Below are positions 6,808-62,375 of a stretch of 64,000 bases of DNA, piece by piece (the first letter of the stretch is position 1; every line of letters begins with the position of its first letter). Both the position numbers and the translations under genes were made by a program. The notes beneath the pieces are model-generated. The model was not told the origin of the DNA and searched no databases. It worked only from the letters and a program-made list of their open reading frames with translations. The stretch lies in assembly GCA_913778905.1 (NCBI GenBank), contig CAJYYA010000012.1:98233-162232 (forward strand). Reading direction: 5' to 3'. Source of the DNA: an uncultured Naasia sp. (lineage in GTDB: Bacteria > Actinomycetota > Actinomycetes > Actinomycetales > Microbacteriaceae).

Positions 6808-7643
6808 TCGGGTCCGTCACCCCCGTGACGCCCACCGACCAGTTCGACGAAGCGATCTTCGAGGCTCTCCCCGGCGCGCACCTCGTCGACCGTGCCCGCG
6901 ACGAGCACCCGCCCGGCCGCGATGACGGCGACGTGGTCGCACATGCGCTGGACGAGGTCCATCGAGTGGCTGGAGACGATGACGGTCCCGCCGTTGCGGA
7001 CGCACCCGGCGAGGATGTCGCGGATGTTCGCGGCCGACACCGGATCGACGGACTCGAACGGCTCGTCGAGGACCAGGAGGCGGGGAGCGTGCACGAGCGC
7101 GCAGGCCAGCGCGACCTTCTTCGTCATACCGGCCGAGTAGTCGACGACGAGCTTGTCCGCCGACTCGACGAGGTCGAGTAGTCGGAGGAGGTCGTCGACG
7201 CGCTGCTGCACCGTCTCGCGATCCATCCCCGTGAGGAGACCCGCGTAGGTGACGAGCTGACGCCCGGTGAGGCGGTCGAAGAGACGGACCCCGTCGCCGA
7301 GGACTCCGATGAGCCGCTTCGCGGCGAGCAGGTCCCGCCACACGTCGACATCGAGGACACGGACGGTACCCGAGTCGGGGCGCATGAGTCCGGTCGCCAT
7401 CGACAGGGTCGTGGTCTTCCCCGCCCCGTTCGGCCCCACCAGTCCGTAGAAGGAGCCGACGGGGATGTCGAGATCGATGCCGTCGACCGCCACCTTGTCG
7501 CCGAAACGCTTGGTGAGGCCTCGGATGCTGAGCGCGGCTGCAGTCGAGGACGTCCGCGGATACCCCGGGCCTGGCACGGCGACAGGCTGCACGGGCGCCG
7601 ATCCGTCTCCCTGCGGAGCTGCCGCGGCGCCCGGCTGGGTCAT
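6789..7643 (-). CDS. ABC transporter ATP-binding protein (ABC-2 exporter)
   Basis: 284 aa. A Pro/Ala-rich leader of about 38 residues precedes the ATPase fold. Walker A GPNGAGKTT, signature YSAGMTKK and Walker B LLVLDEPFESVD are present; the YSAGM form is common in ABC-2 drug and lipid exporters. It overlaps the preceding small membrane protein gene by 4 bp and the following permease gene by 19 bp, giving one tightly coupled operon of three. The substrate cannot be told from the sequence. Confidence 0.9.
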   Translation of the reverse strand: MTQPGAAAAPQGDGSAPVQPVAVPGPGYPRTSSTAAALSIRGLTKRFGDKVAVDGIDLDIPVGSFYGLVGPNGAGKTTTLSMATGLMRPDSGTVRVLDVDVWRDLLAAKRLIGVLGDGVRLFDRLTGRQLVTYAGLLTGMDRETVQQRVDDLLRLLDLVESADKLVVDYSAGMTKKVALACALVHAPRLLVLDEPFESVDPVSAANIRDILAGCVRNGGTVIVSSHSMDLVQRMCDHVAVIAAGRVLVAGTVDEVRAGESLEDRFVELVGGRHGGDGPEWLRTS

Positions 7644-7861
7644 CGCACGCCGTTCAGCAGGAGGATCCCGAAGACAGCTCCGACGAGGGCCAGCACGAGC
7701 GAGATCGTGACGAGCACGATGTGGACGACGAGGAACTTGGAGACCTTGCCGTTCTGCGACTGCGATCTCGGATCACGGACCACCCGCCTGAGGAATGCCG
7801 GCCAGACGATGAAGTTCCAGACGGCGATGATGATCAGAAGGATTCCCGCGGCAGTGGTCAC
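7640..7861 (-). CDS. SCO4848-like small membrane protein
   Basis: 73 aa with two hydrophobic helices (ILLIIIAVWNFIVWPAFL and VVHIVLVTISLVLALVGAVFGILLL) joined by a basic loop RRVVRDPRSQ. It matches the short actinobacterial SCO4848-like family of unknown function. It begins with GTG and is the first gene of the exporter operon, overlapping the ATPase start. It may be an accessory subunit, but nothing shows this directly. Confidence 0.75.
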   Translation of the reverse strand: MTTAAGILLIIIAVWNFIVWPAFLRRVVRDPRSQSQNGKVSKFLVVHIVLVTISLVLALVGAVFGILLLNGVR

Positions 7862-7920
7862 ACGTGCGAGCCTAGAGGGGCCGTGCGCCCTGTGTCAGGG
7901 GCGCGCTCTAAAGTGATCGG

Positions 7921-8541
7921 GTGGCTACAGCGAACGAACGACTCGTCTGGATCGACTGCGAGATGACGGGACTCGACCTCTCGATCGACGAGATCGTCGA
8001 GGTGGCCGTCGTCATCACCGACTACGACCTCACCCCGGTCGATCCGGGGTTCAGCATCGTGGTGAAGCCGAACGACTCCGCGCTCGAGCACATGAACGAG
8101 TTCGTGACGAACATGCACACCGAGTCGGGACTCATCGACGAACTGTCGAACGGCGTGAGCCTGGCGGATGCCGAGTTCGCGGTGCTCGAATACATCCAGC
8201 GCCATGTCCCGACCAAGGGGCACGCGCCGCTCGCCGGGAACACCATCGGCACGGACCGGTCGTTCCTCGTCAAATACATGCCGCGGGTCGACGACTGGCT
8301 GCACTACCGCAGCGTCGACGTGTCGTCGATCAAGGAACTCGCTCGCCGTTGGTATCCCCGCATCTACTTCAACTCGCCCGAGAAGGCCGGCGGTCACCGC
8401 GCTCTCGCCGACATCCTCGAGTCGATTCGCGAACTGCACTACTACCGCAAAGCCGCCTTCGTCGCGGCTCCGGGGCCCTCGACCGATGAGGTGCAGGCCA
8501 TCTCGGCGGCGGTTGTCGCAGAATTCGCTCCGCGTCTGTAA
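7921..8541 (+). CDS. orn: Oligoribonuclease
   Basis: 206 aa with a GTG start. DEDD-family 3'-5' exonuclease: Exo I WIDCEMTGLDL, Exo II NTIGTDRSFL, Exo III HRALADILESI with the catalytic His of the DEDDh type. It degrades 2-5-nt RNA fragments, including pGpG from c-di-GMP turnover, to mononucleotides in the cytoplasm. Its length and the tRNA-His immediately downstream are usual for this gene in related actinobacteria. Confidence 0.95.
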   Translation: MATANERLVWIDCEMTGLDLSIDEIVEVAVVITDYDLTPVDPGFSIVVKPNDSALEHMNEFVTNMHTESGLIDELSNGVSLADAEFAVLEYIQRHVPTKGHAPLAGNTIGTDRSFLVKYMPRVDDWLHYRSVDVSSIKELARRWYPRIYFNSPEKAGGHRALADILESIRELHYYRKAAFVAAPGPSTDEVQAISAAVVAEFAPRL

Positions 8542-8586
8542 TAGACTGTTCGAGTTGTCACACGCGGGAAGCCGCGTGGGTCGCAT

Positions 8587-8663
8587 GGTGGGCGTAGCTC
8601 AGTTGGTAGAGCGCTGGCTTGTGGTGCCGGATGTCGCGGGTTCGAGTCCCGTCGTTCACCCCA
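8587..8663 (+). tRNA. tRNA-His (anticodon GTG)
   Basis: Acceptor GTGGGCG pairs with CGTTCAC, preceded by a genomic G (position -1, pairing with C73) as expected for tRNA-His. Anticodon loop CTTGTGG contains GTG; the T loop is TTCGAGT. The 3' CCA is encoded. Confidence 0.96.
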
Positions 8664-8708
8664 CTTCTTTCGATGGTCGTGAGACCGCAACATCGGCGGG
8701 AGGCGAAG

Positions 8709-9062
8709 ATGCCCCTGGAAATGAACGCCGATGACTTCGAGTCGCTCGTCACGGACGAGCTCGACGCACTTCCGGACGAGATGATCGACGGCCTCGACAA
8801 CGTCGTATTCGTGTGCGAGGACCGGCCCGAGGACGGATCGCTCGATCTGCTCGGCGTGTACGAGGGCACGGCCCTGACCGAACGCGACACCTACGGGTTC
8901 GGCGAGATGCCCGACCGGATCGTCCTGTTCCGTGAGCCGCTGCTCGCCATCTGCGACGACATCGACCAGCTGCGGGATGAGGTGCACATCACGCTCGTGC
9001 ACGAGATCGCTCACTTCTACGGGATCGACGACGCCCGCCTGCACGAGCTCGGATGGGCGTAG
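8709..9062 (+). CDS. Zincin-like metallopeptidase family protein
   Basis: 117 aa from ATG 8709, which has GGGAGG seven bases upstream; the tracked start at 8619 would lie inside tRNA-His. The zinc motif HEIAHFYGIDD (HExxH followed by a conserved Asp) sits near the C-terminus. Short acidic proteins of this actinobacterial family fold as minimal metalloproteases. The substrate is unknown. DNA just downstream is a dense repeat cluster. Confidence 0.85.
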   Translation: MPLEMNADDFESLVTDELDALPDEMIDGLDNVVFVCEDRPEDGSLDLLGVYEGTALTERDTYGFGEMPDRIVLFREPLLAICDDIDQLRDEVHITLVHEIAHFYGIDDARLHELGWA

Positions 9063-9126
9063 GGGCGCTCTCGGCACCGCTTGACCTGGGCGCTCTCGGT
9101 ACGTGGGTGCGCTCCTACTCGAGCCG

Positions 9127-9296
9127 TCTCGGTACGCGGCGCTTCGCGGCCGCTACTCGACGACCGGAGAGGCTCGGTATGCGGCGCTTCGCGGCCGCTA
9201 CTCGACGTCCGGAGGTCCGGAGGTCCGGAGGTCGAGTAGGCGCCGCGAAGCGCGCCGCACCGAGACCGGCCGAGTAGCCGGAGGCGTATCGAGGCC
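9127..9296. repeat. Cluster of palindromic intergenic repeats (family A)
   Basis: Two direct copies of about 40 bp (from 9128 and from 9173), with the core GCGGCGCTTCGCGGCCGCTACTCGAC, are followed by an inverted copy (about 9226-9267) and a diverged half copy ending GGCGTATCGAGGCC. Between them the 8-mer TCCGGAGG is repeated in tandem three times (about 9209-9232). The block separates a + strand gene from a - strand gene and would fold into large hairpins, so it may also terminate transcription. Confidence 0.75.
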
Positions 9297-9316
9297 CCGC
9301 CCCGACAGGCGGCACC

Positions 9317-9592
9317 TCAGAAGCGGAGCGAGTCGTCTTCCTCGTCGGCCTCGACGGGGTCGCTGTCGCGCGGGTCGAAGGTGTAGGTGACGTGCTGCTC
9401 TCCGCCGATCTCCTTCTCCTCGCCCTTGACGTACCAGTAGAGCGACTCGGCCCCACCGACGGCGGCGATCGAGCTGATCTCCTCATCGACCTGACCGTCG
9501 ACCAGAACGCGCGTCTCAGTGGTGCCGTCGAGAGGCCCACCGGAGAATTCGGCGAGGTACTTGGTGTTCTGCGGCTCGTTCGTGTCAGTCAT
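9317..9592 (-). CDS. Hypothetical acidic protein (about 91 aa)
   Basis: I start it at ATG 9592 (MTDTNEPQ); the tracked start at 9625 would lie close to the divergent gene at 9652. The protein is soluble and acidic, with an antiparallel-beta feel (KYLAEFSGGPLDGTTETRVLVDG, SLYWYVKGEE) and a very acidic tail. The GGPLDG segment occurs in many short uncharacterised actinobacterial proteins. No function can be assigned. Confidence 0.7.
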   Translation of the reverse strand: MTDTNEPQNTKYLAEFSGGPLDGTTETRVLVDGQVDEEISSIAAVGGAESLYWYVKGEEKEIGGEQHVTYTFDPRDSDPVEADEEDDSLRF

Positions 9593-9651
9593 GCGCCACA
9601 CGCTAGCGGGCCTTCGTCGACTCATCCTGGACGTCCCCTAGCCTGAGGCAC

Positions 9652-10902
9652 ATGCCGAAACGGGAACGCAACAGGGTCGTCGTCGGGGCGGTCGCGCTCC
9701 TCATCGTCGGCGCGGCGGTCTACGGGCCGGTCGCTCTGCTGGCCCCGCTCCCCACGGCCACGGCGGTTCCGCTCTCCCCCGTCGCGAGCGGCGATGGGGC
9801 GCCGGCACCCACGCTTCCGGTCGCCGGCTCCAGCGGCCTCTCCCTCGGAGTCGACGCGACCCCCGTGGCTGCCGGGAGCACGACCCCCGTGCCGATGGCC
9901 GCCGCCACCAAGCTGATCACCGCACTCGTGGTGCTCGACGCGAAACCCGTCGGCGCCGCGGACTCCGGCCCGACCATCAGCGCCACGAACGAGGACTTCC
10001 AATCCTTCGTGAACTATCAGGCCGCCGGAGTCCGCGCCGTGCGCGTCCTCGCCGGCGACTCCTGGAGCGAGCGCGAGGCCCTGCAGGCGATGGTGGTGGC
10101 GTCGAGCAACAACCACGCCGAGATGCTCGCCCGCTGGGCGTTCGGATCTATCGATGCCTACCTGGTCGCGGCGAAGTCATGGCTGGCCGCGCACGACCTG
10201 ACAGGCGTCACCGTCGCCGACACGACCGGTCTCGACCCGGCCAGCGTCGGAACCGGCTCGGATCTCGCCCGGCTCGCCGCCCTCGTACGTGCCGATCCGC
10301 TGCTCGCCGAGCTCACGAACGCGCCCCGTGACACGTCTCTGCACGGTGCCCCCGTGGAGAACACCATCGGCTATCGCGCGAGCTCCGGGGTCGTCACACT
10401 GTCGCGCAGCTACACGGACGAGGCGGGGGTCTGCGTCGTCTTCGCCTATCCCGTCGAGGTCGGCGGTACCGCCGTCACCGTCTACGGAGCGATGCTGGGC
10501 GAGCCCTCCTACGACCAGCTCGACGCCGACATGGACGCTCTGATCGCCGGTCTCCCCTCGTCGATCGTCGCGCAGGACGCGGTCGCTTCGGGATCCGCGT
10601 GGGGTCGCTACGACACCGCATGGGGCCAGAGCGCCGAGGCTGTCGCTCAGGATGCACTCTCCGTGGTGGATTGGGCGGGGTCGAGCGCCTCGGGTGCTCA
10701 GGTCGTGCTCGACCCGATCACGACGGGGCGCACCGGTCTCACGGTGGGGTCGTTGAGCGTCGTGTCCCGTGAAGGGCCGCGCACGCTTCCCCTCGTTCTG
10801 AACGGGACCATCTCCGACCCGGGCCCGTTGTGGCGACTGGTGAACCCCTCGGTCGTCGTCCCTGCGTTCATCGACATGGTCGCCGCTCGCACGTCGAAGT
10901 AG
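9652..10902 (+). CDS. D-alanyl-D-alanine carboxypeptidase-like protein, active-site motifs degenerate
   Basis: 416 aa with an N-terminal signal or anchor helix (VVVGAVALLIVGAAVYGPVALL), so exported. The fold resembles peptidase S11 (DacA/DacC type): PMAAATKLITALVVLD, VVASSNNHAEMLA and DTTGLDP align with family landmarks. In the first motif, which should be SxxK, the serine is Ala (AATK). The KTG motif region reads SRSYTDEAG. Only the SxN motif (SNN) is intact. It is therefore probably a catalytically dead cell-wall protein with a binding or scaffolding role. Frame and length look undamaged, so simple decay is less likely. Confidence 0.8.
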   Translation: MPKRERNRVVVGAVALLIVGAAVYGPVALLAPLPTATAVPLSPVASGDGAPAPTLPVAGSSGLSLGVDATPVAAGSTTPVPMAAATKLITALVVLDAKPVGAADSGPTISATNEDFQSFVNYQAAGVRAVRVLAGDSWSEREALQAMVVASSNNHAEMLARWAFGSIDAYLVAAKSWLAAHDLTGVTVADTTGLDPASVGTGSDLARLAALVRADPLLAELTNAPRDTSLHGAPVENTIGYRASSGVVTLSRSYTDEAGVCVVFAYPVEVGGTAVTVYGAMLGEPSYDQLDADMDALIAGLPSSIVAQDAVASGSAWGRYDTAWGQSAEAVAQDALSVVDWAGSSASGAQVVLDPITTGRTGLTVGSLSVVSREGPRTLPLVLNGTISDPGPLWRLVNPSVVVPAFIDMVAARTSK

Positions 10903-10914
10903 TCGAGCCGCCTC

Positions 10915-11442
10915 TCAGAGCGCGACGGTGGACCCGTCGATCACGACATCGGCGAGTTCCCTCGGCCGCTCACGTTCGGAGAACGCCTCCTCCTGGCGCG
11001 CCCAGCGCTCCCAGAACGGGGCATACGTCTCGCCGTCCCTGGTCAACGCGCGGTTTTTGCGCGACGCGTCGTCGAGTTCGAGCCATACACCGTAGGTCGC
11101 GAGGCGACGGGCCGCGCGACTCAACGCACCGCATCCTTCGATGACGAGGGGGCGTGCCGGGTCGACGACGTGACGGGTGGTCCTCTCCCCCGTGTCCCAG
11201 CTCCACCGGTGCCACTGCGAGAGAGGGATGATTTCGGTGTGGACGGCCTCCGACCCCGCTTCGAGCCCGTCCCAACCGGGGTAGACGTCATCGAGTCGAA
11301 CCAGCTCGGCACGCAGCGCCTCGGCCAACGCGGTCGCGAACGTGCTCTTCCCCGCACCGCTTCGGCCGTCGATCAGAACGATCGGGCGTTCTCCCCGAGC
11401 CGATGCCATGACCTCCGCTGCGACCCAGGTGACCGTCGACAC
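10915..11442 (-). CDS. Small P-loop kinase (uridine-kinase-like), last gene of the ECF operon
   Basis: About 175 aa. I chose GTG 11442 (GAAGG seven bases upstream); GTG 11466 overlapping the previous gene and ATG 11406 are alternatives. IVLIDGRSGAGKST is a Walker A P-loop. LVRLDDVYPGWDGL matches the substrate region of uridine/pantothenate-type kinases, and PLVIEGCGAL is the Walker B strand. It sits 13 bp behind the ECF T-component, so it is probably in the TPP-riboswitch operon. Phosphorylation of an imported pyrimidine or thiamine precursor is an attractive but unproved role. Confidence 0.75.
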   Translation of the reverse strand: MSTVTWVAAEVMASARGERPIVLIDGRSGAGKSTFATALAEALRAELVRLDDVYPGWDGLEAGSEAVHTEIIPLSQWHRWSWDTGERTTRHVVDPARPLVIEGCGALSRAARRLATYGVWLELDDASRKNRALTRDGETYAPFWERWARQEEAFSERERPRELADVVIDGSTVAL

Positions 11443-11455
11443 GGGCAGGCCTTCG

Positions 11456-12253
11456 TCAGCGCGCACCGATGAAGTTCCAGCTTCCCGCGGCGACGGCGGC
11501 GACGGTGGCGATGACGGCGATGGCCGCTCCGAGGAGCACGAGCAACCATTCGTCCCGTCCGAAGCGGGCGGGACGCGCCCAGGTGCGGGGTCCGGATCCG
11601 CCGAAGCCGCGCGCCTCCATCGCCAGAGACAGGGTTCCCGCGCGCCGGATGGCCAGCACCAGCAGTGCGAAAGCGACCCCTCCCAGGAACCGCACGCGGC
11701 CCAGCAGCCCACCCGCGTCGGCCACGCCGCGCGCGCGCCTGGCCATCAGCAGGCTCTGCCAGTCCTCGGCGAGCAGACCGAGCAGTCGGAGGCCAGCGAG
11801 AGCGCCGAGCACGAAACGGGCGGGCAGACGCCACGTCTGCGCGAGCCCGTCGGCCAGATCCGTCGAATCGACGGTCGCGACGAGGAGGACCGCCGGCAAC
11901 CCGATCGCGAGCACGCGCAACGCCGCGGACAGCGCGAGCTGCAGCGATCCGTCGCTGACGGTCGCCAGCAGGAAGGTGCCGTAGACCCGGCCCGACACCG
12001 GGCCGTACAGGGCGATCGTGACGGCCGTGAGCGGTGCCGCCACGATCAGCACGGACGTGCGGAGGAGCAGCGAACGCCACGGCACACCCGCGAAGGGCAC
12101 CAGAAGCAGTTCGAGGACGAGGGCGGTGCCCGCCGAAACCGGATCGATGGTGACGAGCAGCGCGAGGCCGATGAGTGCGGACGCGGCGATCTTCGCGACC
12201 GGATTGATGAGATGGATGCGGCGGTCGCCGCGGACGGTCTCCAGGAAACTCAT
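11456..12253 (-). CDS. ykoC: ECF transporter T component (YkoC-like)
   Basis: 265 aa with about six membrane helices. The two cytoplasmic coupling motifs of EcfT proteins are visible: MARRARGV and LAMEARGFGG. It passes energy from the ATPases to the S component. It overlaps the ATPase gene by 4 bp. Order S-A-A-T behind a thiamine riboswitch is the YkoEDC arrangement for thiamine-precursor uptake. Symbol given by context and similarity. Confidence 0.85.
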   Translation of the reverse strand: MSFLETVRGDRRIHLINPVAKIAASALIGLALLVTIDPVSAGTALVLELLLVPFAGVPWRSLLLRTSVLIVAAPLTAVTIALYGPVSGRVYGTFLLATVSDGSLQLALSAALRVLAIGLPAVLLVATVDSTDLADGLAQTWRLPARFVLGALAGLRLLGLLAEDWQSLLMARRARGVADAGGLLGRVRFLGGVAFALLVLAIRRAGTLSLAMEARGFGGSGPRTWARPARFGRDEWLLVLLGAAIAVIATVAAVAAGSWNFIGAR

Positions 12254-13713
12254 CTCTCTCCCCCCGCGTGAGACGACGGGGTGGTGAGCCGGAGCTCGAC
12301 GTCGCAGAGCGCATCGACGACCTCCCGGTCGTGCGTCACCGCCACGATGCTGCGGCCGGCTGTCAGTTGCTCTCGGAGCAGTCGGACGAGCTCGCCCCAG
12401 GTGCGGGCGTCCTGCCCGAATGTGGGCTCGTCGAGGACGATGAGGCTCGGAGACGCGGTCAAGACGGTCGCGACGGACAGTCTCCGCTTCTCTCCTCCGG
12501 AGAGAGAGAACGGATGCGCCCGCAGAAGGTGAGTGAGACCGAGTCGTTCGGCGAATCCCTCGGCGATACGCGCCGCTGCGGTCGTGTCGGCGCCGAGCGC
12601 ACGGGGTCCGAGCTCGAGCTCCTGCCGGACGGACGGCGCGAGGAACTGGTGCTCCGGCGACTGGAACACCGTGCCGATGCGGTCGAGCAGCTGACGTGAA
12701 CGCCAGGCGTGGGGTGAGGGCCCGGCGCCCCGACGCAGGGATTTCCCCGCCACGAGCTCGCCCGCGGCGGGGGGAAGCAATCCCGCGATCGTGAGCGCCG
12801 TGGTGGACTTGCCCGCACCGTTCGGACCCGTGATCGCCATGGCGGACCCGGCGCTCAGCGTGAACCCGAGTCCCGTCGCGGCGAACGGCTTACGGCGTCG
12901 GCCGACGCTCAACGAGCGCGCGGTCATGAGCGGATCGGCCTCGACTCGAGGGGGCGCCGGCATGGTCACGGGAGGGGGCGGGGCCGTCAAGTCCAGCGGC
13001 GGGAGCCAGACACCTGCGGCGGCGAGCCGCTCGCGTTCCGCGCCGAGGACGGTGTCCGGCCGTCCGTCGGCGAGGACTCCGTCGCTTCCGAGCACCACGA
13101 TGCGGTCGACCGCGTGCCACCACGTGGAGACGCGGTGCTCGATGACGACGAGAGTCCGGCCGTCGAGCGATCCGAGAACGGCGTCTCGGAGCTGCACGAC
13201 GCCGTCGGGGTCCAGATTGGCGGTGGGTTCGTCGAGCAGAAGCAGTCCCGGCTGCATGGCGAGGACGCCCGCGAGCGCGAGGCGCTGCTTCTGACCGCCT
13301 GAGAGCGCGGACGTGGAGTGGTCGAGCGGGATGCCACCGAGTCCGACGCGGTCGAGAGCGGCGGGCACGGCCGTCCGTATCTCGCTCGGATCGACGGCGA
13401 GGTTCTCGAGGCCGAAGGCGACGTCGTCCCCCACCCGGGCGAGGACGGCCTGGTTCTCGGGATCTTGCAGGACGAGGCCGATGCGCGCGCGCATGGTGTC
13501 GGACGGGCGTCCGTCGACGAGGATCTCTCCCCTCGACTCCCCCTCCTCACCGCCGCCGAGCAGCCCCGCGATGCCGTGAAGGAGAGTCGACTTCCCCGCC
13601 CCCGACGCGCCAAGGAGGAGGACCCGTTCGCCGGGCTCGATGGCGAGGTCGATCCTTTCCACCGCCCAGGCACGGCGGGAGGCGTGCCGCCACCCCCACC
13701 CGCGGACATCCAC
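12250..13713 (-). CDS. ykoD: ECF transporter dual ATPase (YkoD-like)
   Basis: 487 aa with two ABC ATPase domains in one chain. Domain 1 (about 1-230) has GASGAGKST, LSGGQKQR and LLLLDEPTANLD. Domain 2 (about 255-485) has GPNGAGKST, LSGGEKRR and LIVLDEPTFGQD. Both are complete. The start is GTG 13713; no ATG or TTG lies further upstream in frame before the stop of the S-component gene. A fused EcfA/EcfA' is typical of YkoD. Confidence 0.88.
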   Translation of the reverse strand: MDVRGWGWRHASRRAWAVERIDLAIEPGERVLLLGASGAGKSTLLHGIAGLLGGGEEGESRGEILVDGRPSDTMRARIGLVLQDPENQAVLARVGDDVAFGLENLAVDPSEIRTAVPAALDRVGLGGIPLDHSTSALSGGQKQRLALAGVLAMQPGLLLLDEPTANLDPDGVVQLRDAVLGSLDGRTLVVIEHRVSTWWHAVDRIVVLGSDGVLADGRPDTVLGAERERLAAAGVWLPPLDLTAPPPPVTMPAPPRVEADPLMTARSLSVGRRRKPFAATGLGFTLSAGSAMAITGPNGAGKSTTALTIAGLLPPAAGELVAGKSLRRGAGPSPHAWRSRQLLDRIGTVFQSPEHQFLAPSVRQELELGPRALGADTTAAARIAEGFAERLGLTHLLRAHPFSLSGGEKRRLSVATVLTASPSLIVLDEPTFGQDARTWGELVRLLREQLTAGRSIVAVTHDREVVDALCDVELRLTTPSSHAGGER

Positions 13714-58089: not shown

Positions 58090-58278
58090 TTACTTGGTGA
58101 GCGCCACGACCACACCTCCAGCTGCGGCCACGAGGAAGGAAAGAATGATCCAAGGGAAGACCACGTGTTTGTTGCCGGAGAAGATCTCACCTGTCCTCCG
58201 ATAGCCAACCATCGCGTAGACCACGGCGGCGGCGAACGAGACGAACCCGATAGCGAAGAGCACCACTCCTGAGGCCAC
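58090..58278 (-). CDS. Small two-helix membrane protein (62 aa)
   Basis: GTG 58278 has AGAAGGA nine bases upstream; the tracked TTG at 58287 is too close to it. Two hydrophobic helices (ASGVVLFAIGFVSFAAAVVYAMVGY and VVFPWIILSFLVAAAGGVVVALT) are joined by RRTGEIFSGNKH. I do not recognise the family. It directly follows another tiny membrane ORF on the same strand. Confidence 0.6.
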   Translation of the reverse strand: MASGVVLFAIGFVSFAAAVVYAMVGYRRTGEIFSGNKHVVFPWIILSFLVAAAGGVVVALTK

Positions 58279-58301
58279 TGTGATCAATCCTTCTGCCGAG
58301 A

Positions 58302-58676: not shown

Positions 58677-58910
58677 CTAGAGCGGCGGACGCCCCTTCTT
58701 TCTCCGCTGAGTGTTGACGAGCACGATAATTACGAAGGCAGAGCAGAACACGAATCCGGCCCCTGCAAGAAACCACATAGGCAGGCCCAGGGCTCCTGAG
58801 AAGCCAGACGTTGCGGTTCCTTGCTGCACGCTCGGGAAGAGCAGGGCGATGAGGCACCCAGCTGCCATGACCCCGAATCCTCCAACGGCTGCTTTTTCTC
58901 CCGTGGTCAT
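58677..58910 (-). CDS. Small two-helix membrane protein (77 aa)
   Basis: GAAGGGA nine bases before ATG 58910. Helices GGFGVMAAGCLIALLF and LGLPMWFLAGAGFVFCSAFVIIVLV flank a polar loop SVQQGTATSGFSG; the C-terminus is very basic (NTQRRKKGRPPL). Not recognised. Codon use and small size are like the other island genes. Confidence 0.6.
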   Translation of the reverse strand: MTTGEKAAVGGFGVMAAGCLIALLFPSVQQGTATSGFSGALGLPMWFLAGAGFVFCSAFVIIVLVNTQRRKKGRPPL

Positions 58911-59779: not shown

Positions 59780-60373
59780 ATGGCGAAGCTCATCGGTTAT
59801 GCGCGAGTCTCGACCCGCAACCAGTCGACGGACCGTCAAGAGGCTGACCTGCTCGCCGCCGGCATCCGACGCGATGATCTCTACATCGACCACGGCGTCT
59901 CGGGAGCTCGAGCATCGCGACCACAATTCGATCGAGCACTCGCCGCACTCCACGATGGCGACACCCTCGTCATCACCACCCTCGACCGACTCGGGCGCTC
60001 AACACAGAACATGCTCGCCTTCGCCGACGAGCTCCGCGCTCGCGGCGCTGGCCTCCGCGTACTCAATCTCGGCGGGGGCGACGTCGACACTTCCACCCCG
60101 ATGGGGTCGATGCTGTTCACGATCATGGCCGCGCTGGCTCAGATGGAGTACGAGATCAAGCGGGAGCGAGTTACCGACTCGGTGACCAAGCGGCGCGAGG
60201 ATGGCAAGGATCTCGGCGGCCGCCCGCAACGCATCACCGACAGCCAGATCCGCAGCGCCATCCGACTCGTCGAAAGCGGCGAGCCTGCCGCCCAGGTGGC
60301 ACGCGATCTCGGGATGTCCCGAGCTTCGTTTTACCGGCGCTCCCGTCTATTGGATGCACCGACCGCGCCGTAG
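59780..60373 (+). CDS. Serine recombinase (resolvase/invertase family)
   Basis: 197 aa from ATG 59780 (GAGGT upstream). The N-terminal catalytic domain has the nucleophile Ser in LIGYARVSTRNQS, then VITTLDRLGRSTQNML and GSMLFTIMAALAQMEYEIKRERV. The C-terminal HTH (ITDSQIRSAIRLVESGEPAAQVARDLGMSRASFYRR) is the Hin/Pin type. Complete, so potentially active. No partner transposase is present. It marks the island as mobile or invertible. Confidence 0.92.
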   Translation: MAKLIGYARVSTRNQSTDRQEADLLAAGIRRDDLYIDHGVSGARASRPQFDRALAALHDGDTLVITTLDRLGRSTQNMLAFADELRARGAGLRVLNLGGGDVDTSTPMGSMLFTIMAALAQMEYEIKRERVTDSVTKRREDGKDLGGRPQRITDSQIRSAIRLVESGEPAAQVARDLGMSRASFYRRSRLLDAPTAP

Positions 60374-60600
60374 CAGATAGGGACCCCTCCGCGGGACTGC
60401 TTGCGGACGGGCCTTACGGTACGACCGACCGCCGACGTCTACTGGGGCGCTCCCGAAGCTGAGGACGTCCCGTTTCAGGATCCCTATACGGACAGATTGC
60501 TCGCGCGACGTGGGAACAGAATTCGGGCTCGAGAGCCATGGACACGCTGCAGTCGTCTCACCTCTCCTTCCCCCGGAGGCGCAGCACGCGATCTAAAGAC

Positions 60601-60638
60601 AGCGGAGACGCGCCGCTCTCAAGCTGCACGTCTCCGCT
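60601..60638 (-). terminator. Terminator of the RHS/immunity transcript
   Basis: AGCGGAGACG (60601-60610) pairs perfectly with CGTCTCCGCT (60629-60638) around an 18-base loop. Read leftward, it comes 16 bp after the stop of the small membrane gene and is followed by GTCTTTAG, a modest U-rich tail. Confidence 0.6.
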
Positions 60639-60653
60639 GATTACTCGAGCTAT

Positions 60654-60827
60654 TCACTCACGGTTACGCAGCAGCTTCCGCCAGCTCACCACCACCAATG
60701 CCACGCTCACAGCGGCAAGTAGCAAACCAGCTATGCGCACTCCGTCACTTGGTGCCGTCGCTGCCATTACTGCTCCAAGAACGGCTAGAACCGCACTAAG
60801 GACGAGGAGAAACCTTGAAGAGGCCAT
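60654..60827 (-). CDS. Small membrane protein after RHS, candidate immunity protein (57 aa), not in ORF track
   Basis: ATG 60827 with TTAGGA six bases upstream; ATG 60833 would give 59 aa. Begins MASSRFLLVLSAV. Two helices (RFLLVLSAVLAVLGAVMAATA and IAGLLLAAVSVALVVVSW) and a basic end WRKLLRNRE. With the upstream ATG the gap to the RHS stop is 2 bp, so translation is coupled. A small membrane gene directly behind an RHS toxin tip is the standard place for its immunity protein. No family recognised. Confidence 0.6.
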   Translation of the reverse strand: MASSRFLLVLSAVLAVLGAVMAATAPSDGVRIAGLLLAAVSVALVVVSWRKLLRNRE

Positions 60828-60835
60828 AGCCATTC

Positions 60836-62131
60836 CTAACAGTCACCGCTCGCAGATGCCTCGACTGCTGAATATGTGGACAGTGCATACCCAGCGGCGG
60901 CGAGAGCGAGCGTGGCTCCTCGACTGGGCAGGGCCGCCAACAAGCCGACCGTAGCTAATACGCCACTCGCGAGTGCGACGTAGCAACTGGCCGGCAGGTC
61001 GGCATCGAGTCCTGTCGAGTCGGACTTGTTGACAGGATTGCAAGACGCGTAGCCATACGCACTCGCCTCTTGGCCTGACGGGTCTGCTTGGGTGAAGCGT
61101 CCGAGCGCGGGGTCGTAGTAGCGGGCCCCGAGCCGGTACCGATTCACGGTGGTGTCGTAGTAGCCGCTGATGTATCGGATGGGGTTGTCGTTGGTGAAGA
61201 CGCCGTTGAAGGTGGAGCGGGTTTCACCGTAGGGGCTGTAGGAGTAGCCGCCCTGCCAGGCCCCGTTGCGGTTGAAGGCTCCGACGACGCTGCCGAGGGA
61301 GTCCTTCACGAACGAGTAGCGCTCCTCGAAGTAGCGCACCGTGGTGAGCTCCCCGTCCGGGGTGCGGGTGTATGCCCGGCGCTGGCTCGCGCCGGTACTT
61401 CCCGACATCACCAGGCCCGTCGGCGAGACCAGGAACCCGTTGGTGGTTCCCCCGTTGGTGCGGGTGAGGGTGTTGGTGTTGCCCGCCTTCCAGGCCGTGT
61501 AGGTGCTTGACCCAATCGCGGTCACCGCGCCTCGGTCATTGAAGGTGGAGGTGACACCGGTGAGGGCGTTGCGGGTCTGGTTGCCGGCGGCGTCGTAGGT
61601 CCAGGACCCGTTGCTGCCGGTGGCGCCAGTGATCTGGTTGGCGGCGTTGTAAGTGGTGTCGATGGTCCCTGCGGCTGCGCCGGTGTTGCCGGTGCGGATC
61701 TGCTTGGTGCGGTTGCCGGCGTTGTCGTAGCTGTACGCCCACGACGCGTTCGCCGTCGACCCGACCTTCTCATCCGCCAACTTGAGCCGGTTCAGGCTGT
61801 CGTATGAATAGGTCGTGACCGCTCCTGCGGTGATGCCCTGCTCGAGGTACGCGGTGCGGGTCTGGATAGTGCCCCGATCCGCGCTGGCACCGCTCTGGCC
61901 AGGGGCGGTGTAGCTGTACCCGATGTCGACCTTGGTCGCTCCGGAGCCGTCCTTGGCGGTGATGCGGGTGGCGCGGCCGGAGTTGTCGCGGGTGGTTGCG
62001 ACGGTGGCGTTGCCCTGGAAGGTGCGGAGGGTTTCGGCTCCGTTGGCGTTGTAGGCGAAGCGGGTGCAGCCGCTGGCTGCGGGTGCGCTCGTGCCGGCGG
62101 GGCAGGACTGGTCAGGATCGGCCAGGGTCAC
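60836..62131 (-). CDS. RHS-repeat protein, C-terminal part with core domain and hydrophobic tip
   Basis: 431 aa as tracked; the frame continues a little further upstream. YD repeats (for example YAYDNAGNRT-like, YSYDNAGNRTKQI; WTYDAAGNQTRN) lead to the RHS core RLGARYYDPALGRFTQADPSGQEASAYGYASCNPVNKSDSTGLD. Beyond the DSTGL boundary only about 55 residues remain, with two hydrophobic stretches and flanking Cys (SCYVALASGVL, ASASGDC). This tip would be the toxin-like variable part. The 5' end is missing, so it is an orphan cassette rather than a full secreted RHS protein. Confidence 0.75.
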   Translation of the reverse strand: MTLADPDQSCPAGTSAPAASGCTRFAYNANGAETLRTFQGNATVATTRDNSGRATRITAKDGSGATKVDIGYSYTAPGQSGASADRGTIQTRTAYLEQGITAGAVTTYSYDSLNRLKLADEKVGSTANASWAYSYDNAGNRTKQIRTGNTGAAAGTIDTTYNAANQITGATGSNGSWTYDAAGNQTRNALTGVTSTFNDRGAVTAIGSSTYTAWKAGNTNTLTRTNGGTTNGFLVSPTGLVMSGSTGASQRRAYTRTPDGELTTVRYFEERYSFVKDSLGSVVGAFNRNGAWQGGYSYSPYGETRSTFNGVFTNDNPIRYISGYYDTTVNRYRLGARYYDPALGRFTQADPSGQEASAYGYASCNPVNKSDSTGLDADLPASCYVALASGVLATVGLLAALPSRGATLALAAAGYALSTYSAVEASASGDC

Positions 62132-62375
62132 GAGACGGTTCGCGTCGTCGTAGCCGTAGGTGATCTTGCCGTTGTTGGTCTCTTCGGCGCTGAGCGTTTT
62201 CGTACTGCACCGAGTAGCTGCGCCCGGAGGCCTGGGTCACGCCCGAGAGCTGACCGTTGGTGTAGTTGCAGATCGCCCCGACGCTGTTGCGGTCGGTGTG
62301 GTTGGTGATCCAGATTCGATTGCAGTCTCTCTGGTCACAGTGAACGGCTGGGCGTCGGGCTTCTCGCCCAGTCAT
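62112..62375 (-). pseudogene. RHS fragment upstream of a frameshift
   Basis: Residues ITNHTDRNSVGAICNYTNGQLSGVTQASGRSYSVQYENA are RHS-like, then the frame turns to nonsense. The natural continuation EETNNGKITYGYDDANRLVTLADPDQ is in the frame of the following ORF. The shift is around 62186-62200, next to a TTTT run. Homology stops at about 62340, where crotonase upstream DNA begins, so the long N-terminal part of the gene has been deleted or was never acquired. Confidence 0.75.

Follow-up and report, generated by a model that had tools for sequence, protein, structure and literature searches.

The minus-strand end of an RHS gene in the stretch of DNA analysed here (the window, 64,000 nucleotides, corresponding to C12:98233-162232 of the 3.2-Mb genome G000, which is split into 23 contigs) appears from sequence comparison to be an orphan polymorphic toxin unit, comprising the C-terminal end of an RHS protein, a membrane-acting tip, and a putative two-helix membrane immunity protein. 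We estimate the probability of this reading at roughly 70%.

Architecture of the RHS end and its partner

The locus comprises the following features, all on the minus strand:

62112..62375, minus strand: upstream RHS piece in another frame, truncated at its 5' end (three-frame translation; RHS_repeat E 0.015)
60836..62131, minus strand: main open frame of the RHS core fragment (431 aa, tip included, read from a GTG), aligning with about the last third of full-length relatives
61007..61039, minus strand: core/tip junction NPVNKSDSTG-L (from the translation; the motif is seen again in relatives)
60839..61009, minus strand: 57-aa hydrophobic tip, putative membrane toxin, with cysteines at tip positions 9 and 57
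60834..60839, minus strand: TTAGGA, a Shine-Dalgarno-like (AGGA-like) sequence for the small ORF, overlapping the RHS stop (from the sequence)
60654..60833, minus strand: 59-aa two-TM ORF, putative immunity protein (57 aa if the second ATG, at 60827, is used)
60600..60639, minus strand: hairpin 3' of the small ORF (14-bp stem, z = -3.96, no T-run)
58677-58910 and 58090-58287, minus strand: two-TM ORFs of 77 and 65 aa, 1.7-2.6 kb downstream

The fragment possesses both the repeats and the associated core that define RHS proteins: in a profile scan NCBIfam TIGR03696 (Rhs_assc_core) scored 66.7 bits against a cut-off of 32.5, YD_repeat_2x exceeded its cut-off, and PF05593 was also matched. The RHS-associated core ends with ...GRFTQADPSGQEASAYGYASCNPVNKSDSTG and is followed by the 57-residue tip LDADLPASCYVALASGVLATVGLLAALPSRGATLALAAAGYALSTYSAVEASASGDC and by the stop codon TAG at 60836-60838, in agreement with the first-pass annotation of this DNA, which had described a hydrophobic end of about 55 residues. 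The same annotation had placed a two-helix protein of 57-59 aa at 2-8 bases past the stop, and the ORF indeed starts 2 nt past it, or 8 nt if the second ATG is used. The "clean terminator" that it had reported beyond this ORF is a strong hairpin, as claimed, but one devoid of a T-run and not called by the terminator scan. The junction resembles the PxxxxDPxGL cleavage motif of Rhs proteins, with the P of DP replaced by S; by analogy with Rhs proteins, it would be cut there.

In full-length relatives the open frame extends over 1090-1208 aa; several of these proteins have signal-peptide-like starts, and the three that were scanned contain DUF6531 and RHS repeats. Only about the last third of them is matched by the window sequence (residues 707-1117 of the protein in locus L103, for instance, align to positions 62170-60923); through truncation the window copy is devoid of the full-length shell, of the N-terminal domains and of the export signal. 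Near 62195-62210 the RHS-like reading passes from one frame upstream to another downstream in the three-frame translation, and hence both the 5' truncation and the frameshift noted earlier are borne out. No second RHS core was found in the window's genome. Since the sole core is the truncated one, the locus is an orphan end, for which the earlier term "displaced orphan" is apt, and like the known orphan rhs-CT/rhsI modules it combines a truncated core with an intact tip and a putative immunity gene, apart from any main RHS gene. Because the shell is both truncated and frameshifted, and the genome offers no further RHS core, the tip is probably not delivered here, and the pair is probably kept for its immunity gene or survives as a relic.

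A stronger version of the latter idea, namely that the unit descends from a toxin-immunity pair but is now dead debris, with the tip and the partner neither made nor used in this strain, has a substantial chance of being right, albeit one clearly below even. The truncation with frameshift and the solitary state of the core agree with it, as does the result of the promoter scan, which found no sigma-70-type match at the locus. It is countered by the intact tip frame and partner ORF with their ribosome-binding sequence, by the protein-level conservation of both (described below), and by the observation that orphan immunity genes in CDI/Rhs systems can be expressed and functional (PMC3150448).

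Co-inheritance, exchange and recurrence in relatives

The closest relative of the 59-aa ORF is located in genome G187 (locus L098), where it starts 4 bases upstream of the end of the RHS stop codon (offset -4), and the same RHS protein carries the closest relative of the window tip. The comparison of the window with G187 yielded z scores of 6.1 for the tips and 7.5 for the partners, with 0 of 5000 shuffles reaching either value. The partners align in the coding frame only (z 8.0, versus at most 2.3 in the remaining five frames); their differences are distributed over the three codon positions as 23/16/33, with a bias to the third, and 14 of the 17 identical residues use different codons. The corresponding values for the tips are 25/17/37 and 16 of 22. 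Judged from these alignments, tip and partner are both conserved as proteins and are inherited together. Over all pairs collected in this work the similarities of tips and partners are uncorrelated (Spearman 0.08), because most pairs lie beyond detectable homology, and the co-inheritance thus rests on the one clear case of G187.

The 59-aa ORF is predicted to form two helices (residues 2-25 and 30-58, mean pLDDT 76), with charges of +1/-1/+3 in the N-terminus, loop and C-terminus, respectively. A search for its homologs in 40 relatives returned only low-complexity membrane matches, Pfam and NCBIfam contain no family matching either the window tip or the partner, and nothing similar was found in the E. 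coli genomes searched. We also considered the 77-aa and 65-aa two-TM ORFs farther downstream as additional immunity genes and rejected them, as their homologs are found beside ordinary genes without RHS; the 77-aa ORF has a 52% identical paralogue in the window's genome (contig C18).

Our survey covered the family, the order and the phylum, mostly with a core-only profile, as well as named contigs and plasmids; part of it started from a query that included the window tip, which introduces a mild selection bias. It provided 31 distinct short tips on related RHS cores, with all pairwise identities below 50%, and the named relatives are mostly Microbacteriaceae and other Micrococcales. Partners were sought on the same strand with a start between -40 and +125 bases from the stop, and TM segments were assigned by a simple hydropathy rule. 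A small membrane ORF directly follows 27 of the 31 short tips (two-TM in 23 cases, single-TM in 4), and for most of these partners the charges imply an N-in/C-in topology. The other 4 tips have no membrane ORF by the search rule, and L075 has a soluble-looking ORF instead. The tip in G398 is accompanied by a one-TM ORF of 33 aa, which is under the length limit of the rule, and a homologous tip on a Clavibacter plasmid has a one-TM ORF of 39 aa alongside; these two partners give z 2.5 and are too short for a proof of homology. The partners in the plasmid loci L095, L097 and L119, as well as the 62-aa ORF of L096, have no listed gene in a gene table that is itself incomplete.

With a uniform rule applied to the same stretches, a two-TM ORF was found after 19 of 27 short tips, as compared to 14 of 165 other gene ends (Fisher p = 1e-11), and on the antisense strand after 0 of 27. 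The background of 14 in 165 gene ends indicates that single cases can be chance or unrelated genes, and the GC3 of the 59-aa ORF is not raised. Nonetheless, this recurrence across relatives and the conservation with G187 as a protein, confined to the coding frame, led us to reject the explanation that the ORF is open only by chance in DNA of high GC content, which we consider extremely improbable. The first-pass annotation had named an unrelated or missing gene after the same RHS end in relatives as evidence against a toxin-immunity pair; nearly all short hydrophobic tips turned out to be followed by a small membrane ORF, and the clearly homologous tip in G187 has a homologous partner. The recurrence of the layout with dozens of sequences points to a large, mostly unannotated set of candidate very small membrane toxins and their protectors.

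Tips and partners are exchanged as units between RHS genes. Relative to the window sequence the cores are 41-60% identical and the tips 16-39%. Two RHS copies of G164 carry unrelated tips and partners on cores that are 91.6-92.5% identical at the DNA level, the similarity being lost abruptly 24-31 bp before the tip. The same genome has a full-length RHS of 1127 aa, behind which lie two-TM ORFs, a displaced piece of core that has a different tip and partner, and a third remnant accompanied by a two-TM ORF. Two successive tip/partner units are present in G002, from the same genus, and a run of two-TM ORFs resembling an immunity array was found on an Arthrobacter plasmid. Two of these arrangements are:

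L101 (G164 C9:815000-831000), about 7129-12302: full-length RHS, then displaced core/tip/partner remnants (at least two) as well as extra two-TM ORFs
L096 (Arthrobacter plasmid pYA7-1b), 7593-11331: RHS fragments, three in tandem, ahead of the run of two-TM ORFs (10414, 10660, 11128)

A variable tip past a conserved core, exchanged together with the following gene, is the hallmark of polymorphic toxins, and the toxin/immunity reading proposed earlier for the window is therefore supported, on comparative grounds, by the swapping and the displaced arrays.

The same observations bear on two other explanations of the pair. According to the first, the tip is a hydrophobic C-terminal membrane anchor of the RHS protein, with the small membrane protein serving as a partner for docking or assembly. 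The tips are hydrophobic and helical and the partners are membrane proteins, as required, yet an anchor should be conserved together with the core, whereas the identities given above are far lower for the tips; moreover, tip and partner move as whole units, by swapping and by displacement into arrays, in the manner of toxin-immunity modules, and the core type GGVTNAYDYP has long tips at the same place. We regard this explanation as unlikely. The second, in which the tip and the small protein would together form a two-component membrane toxin, is accorded even less credence, although both proteins are small, hydrophobic, helical and co-encoded: the small ORF shows no pattern of a signal peptide plus cleavage site and is encoded separately from the exported shell, the charges put both ends of most partners in the producer's cytoplasm, and arrays contain solitary additional two-TM ORFs that have no tip, as is the case for orphan immunity genes.

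A gene for a serine recombinase (resolvase) is located at 59780-60373 on the plus strand, about 280 bp beyond the small ORF and facing it. In G002 a copy with 95% identity occupies L099:10053-10622, about 0.8 kb downstream of that genome's two tip/partner units, and in L103, L104, L116 and L095 related recombinases are found within several kb of RHS. The recombinase may help to move tip/partner cassettes.

Tip cysteines and proposed mode of action

Exactly two cysteines are present in 26 of the 31 tips (rough binomial p = 7e-11 against the largest Poisson rate), as compared to 3 of 27 partners. The core ends with YAxC-NPVN in 16 of the 31 loci, with its cysteine about 10-20 residues before the tip, and in most tips on such cores one cysteine falls within tip residues 3-9 and the second close to the tip's end. 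The core cysteine is paired with an early tip cysteine in 15 of 16 loci, versus 4 of the 15 remaining ones (p = 2e-4, uncorrected for relatedness), and it may tie the tip to the shell across the cleavage site. For the window tip, structure prediction gave two helices, albeit with low confidence (pLDDT 50-66). One cysteine falls close to the beginning of the first helix and the other lies past the end of the second, so that a disulfide could close the hairpin. Glycine-zipper toxins are defined by repeats of the (G/A/S)xxxGxxxG type in the toxin helix; some tips are rich in GxxxG, and a Pfam search with 17 tips matched two Gly-zipper models weakly, with one member each. A second core type in the same family, GGVTNAYDYPxDPIN (L043, L044, L047, L049), has long tips (165-190 aa), which suggests a link between core type and tip class.

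For the polymorphic toxin unit we propose the following mode of action. In intact relatives the carrier of the tip would be an RHS shell that is about 1100-1200 aa long, has a signal-peptide-like N-terminus and is presumably cut near the DPxGL-like junction, freeing a tip of about 55-80 residues. The freed tip would be a hydrophobic helical hairpin, rich in Gly and Ala and probably held shut by a disulfide that links the two cysteines, and would insert into the cell membrane of a competitor bacterium and permeabilise it. The two-helix partner, residing in the producer's membrane with both ends inside, would block the insertion or assembly of the matching tip. Delivery and toxicity, the membrane target, and immunity are all putative elements of this scheme, as are the cleavage and the disulfide. 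A broader generalization, to which we give somewhat less than even odds, is that actinobacterial RHS proteins carry hyperdiverse minimal toxins, i.e. bacteriocin-like hydrophobic disulfide hairpins of 53-80 residues with two cysteines, often terminal ones, each accompanied by a tiny, usually uncalled membrane-hairpin immunity protein.

Relation to known membrane toxins

A close parallel is provided by the alpha-helical CDI ionophores (PMC11630599), in which a polymorphic membrane-acting end is likewise followed by a very small hydrophobic two-helix immunity protein (putative in our case), and the cognate pairs are extremely diversified in sequence. Their CdiI proteins are two-helix hairpins of 72-100 aa with both ends inside (PMC11630599); the 59-aa partner agrees with them in architecture and charge pattern, but is shorter and shows no sequence family match. 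The CDI toxins comprise an entry domain and a five-helix bundle on a Gram-negative CdiA with a VENN motif, whereas the tips described here have 53-80 aa (up to about 100), approximately two helices and two cysteines, and are fused to an actinobacterial RHS core without an entry domain; with its 57-aa tip of about two helices on an RHS core, the window protein does not possess the CDI ionophore domain.

Among RHS proteins, Tse5 is a pore-forming toxin with a membrane-bound immunity protein, Tsi5 (PMC10684867, PMC12744356). It resembles the scheme proposed here in that the C-terminus of an RHS shell acts on membranes and is freed by cleavage at the core end (PMC10684867). However, Tse5-CT has 149 residues and is delivered by a Gram-negative T6SS (PMC10684867), while the tips reported here are less than half as long, have two cysteines, and in intact relatives belong to proteins with signal-peptide-like N-termini. 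The glycine-zipper LXG toxins EsxX and TspA (PMC12744356) share the Gram-positive background, depolarise the membrane from outside and are neutralised by membrane proteins, but they have T7SS LXG carriers, larger toxin domains, and polytopic or soluble immunity proteins (PMC12744356).

The W-TIP toxin domain, Imm17 and Imm-CdiI (PMC3482391) offer a small hydrophobic two-helix toxin and two-TM immunity proteins. W-TIP, reported from proteobacteria only, has RxxR in helix 1 and W with TIP in helix 2, and Imm17 has two TM helices, WxW, and an R in the region between (PMC3482391); the window tip lacks W and the RxxR and TIP motifs, and the 59-aa protein lacks WxW. Displaced toxin ends with immunity genes and leftover core, resembling the putative ones in the window and in the arrays behind full-length genes of its relatives, are known from the orphan rhs-CT/rhsI and cdiA-CT/cdiI modules, in which the toxins are mostly without start signals and an orphan immunity gene was found to be expressed (PMC3150448). 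Those modules were described in Gram-negatives, unlike the present ones from a Gram-positive lineage, and the window's genome has no full-length parent.

A polymorphic membrane toxin with two-TM immunity is thus of a known kind; what looks new is the pairing of two-cysteine tips of very small size, borne by RHS proteins of actinobacteria, with minute partners that often lack annotation, a pairing of which we found no description in the open-access literature (most subscription journals were outside the scope of the search). To our knowledge, the way in which RHS cargo enters Gram-positive neighbours is unsettled; if our proposal is true, a disulfide-closed tip attacking the membrane from outside would need no crossing. 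The two-cysteine tip and its tiny two-helix partner would make it simple to search for many toxin-immunity pairs, the immunity genes of which frequently seem to have escaped annotation, and such pairs would be very small systems for testing how membrane immunity proteins recognize membrane toxins.
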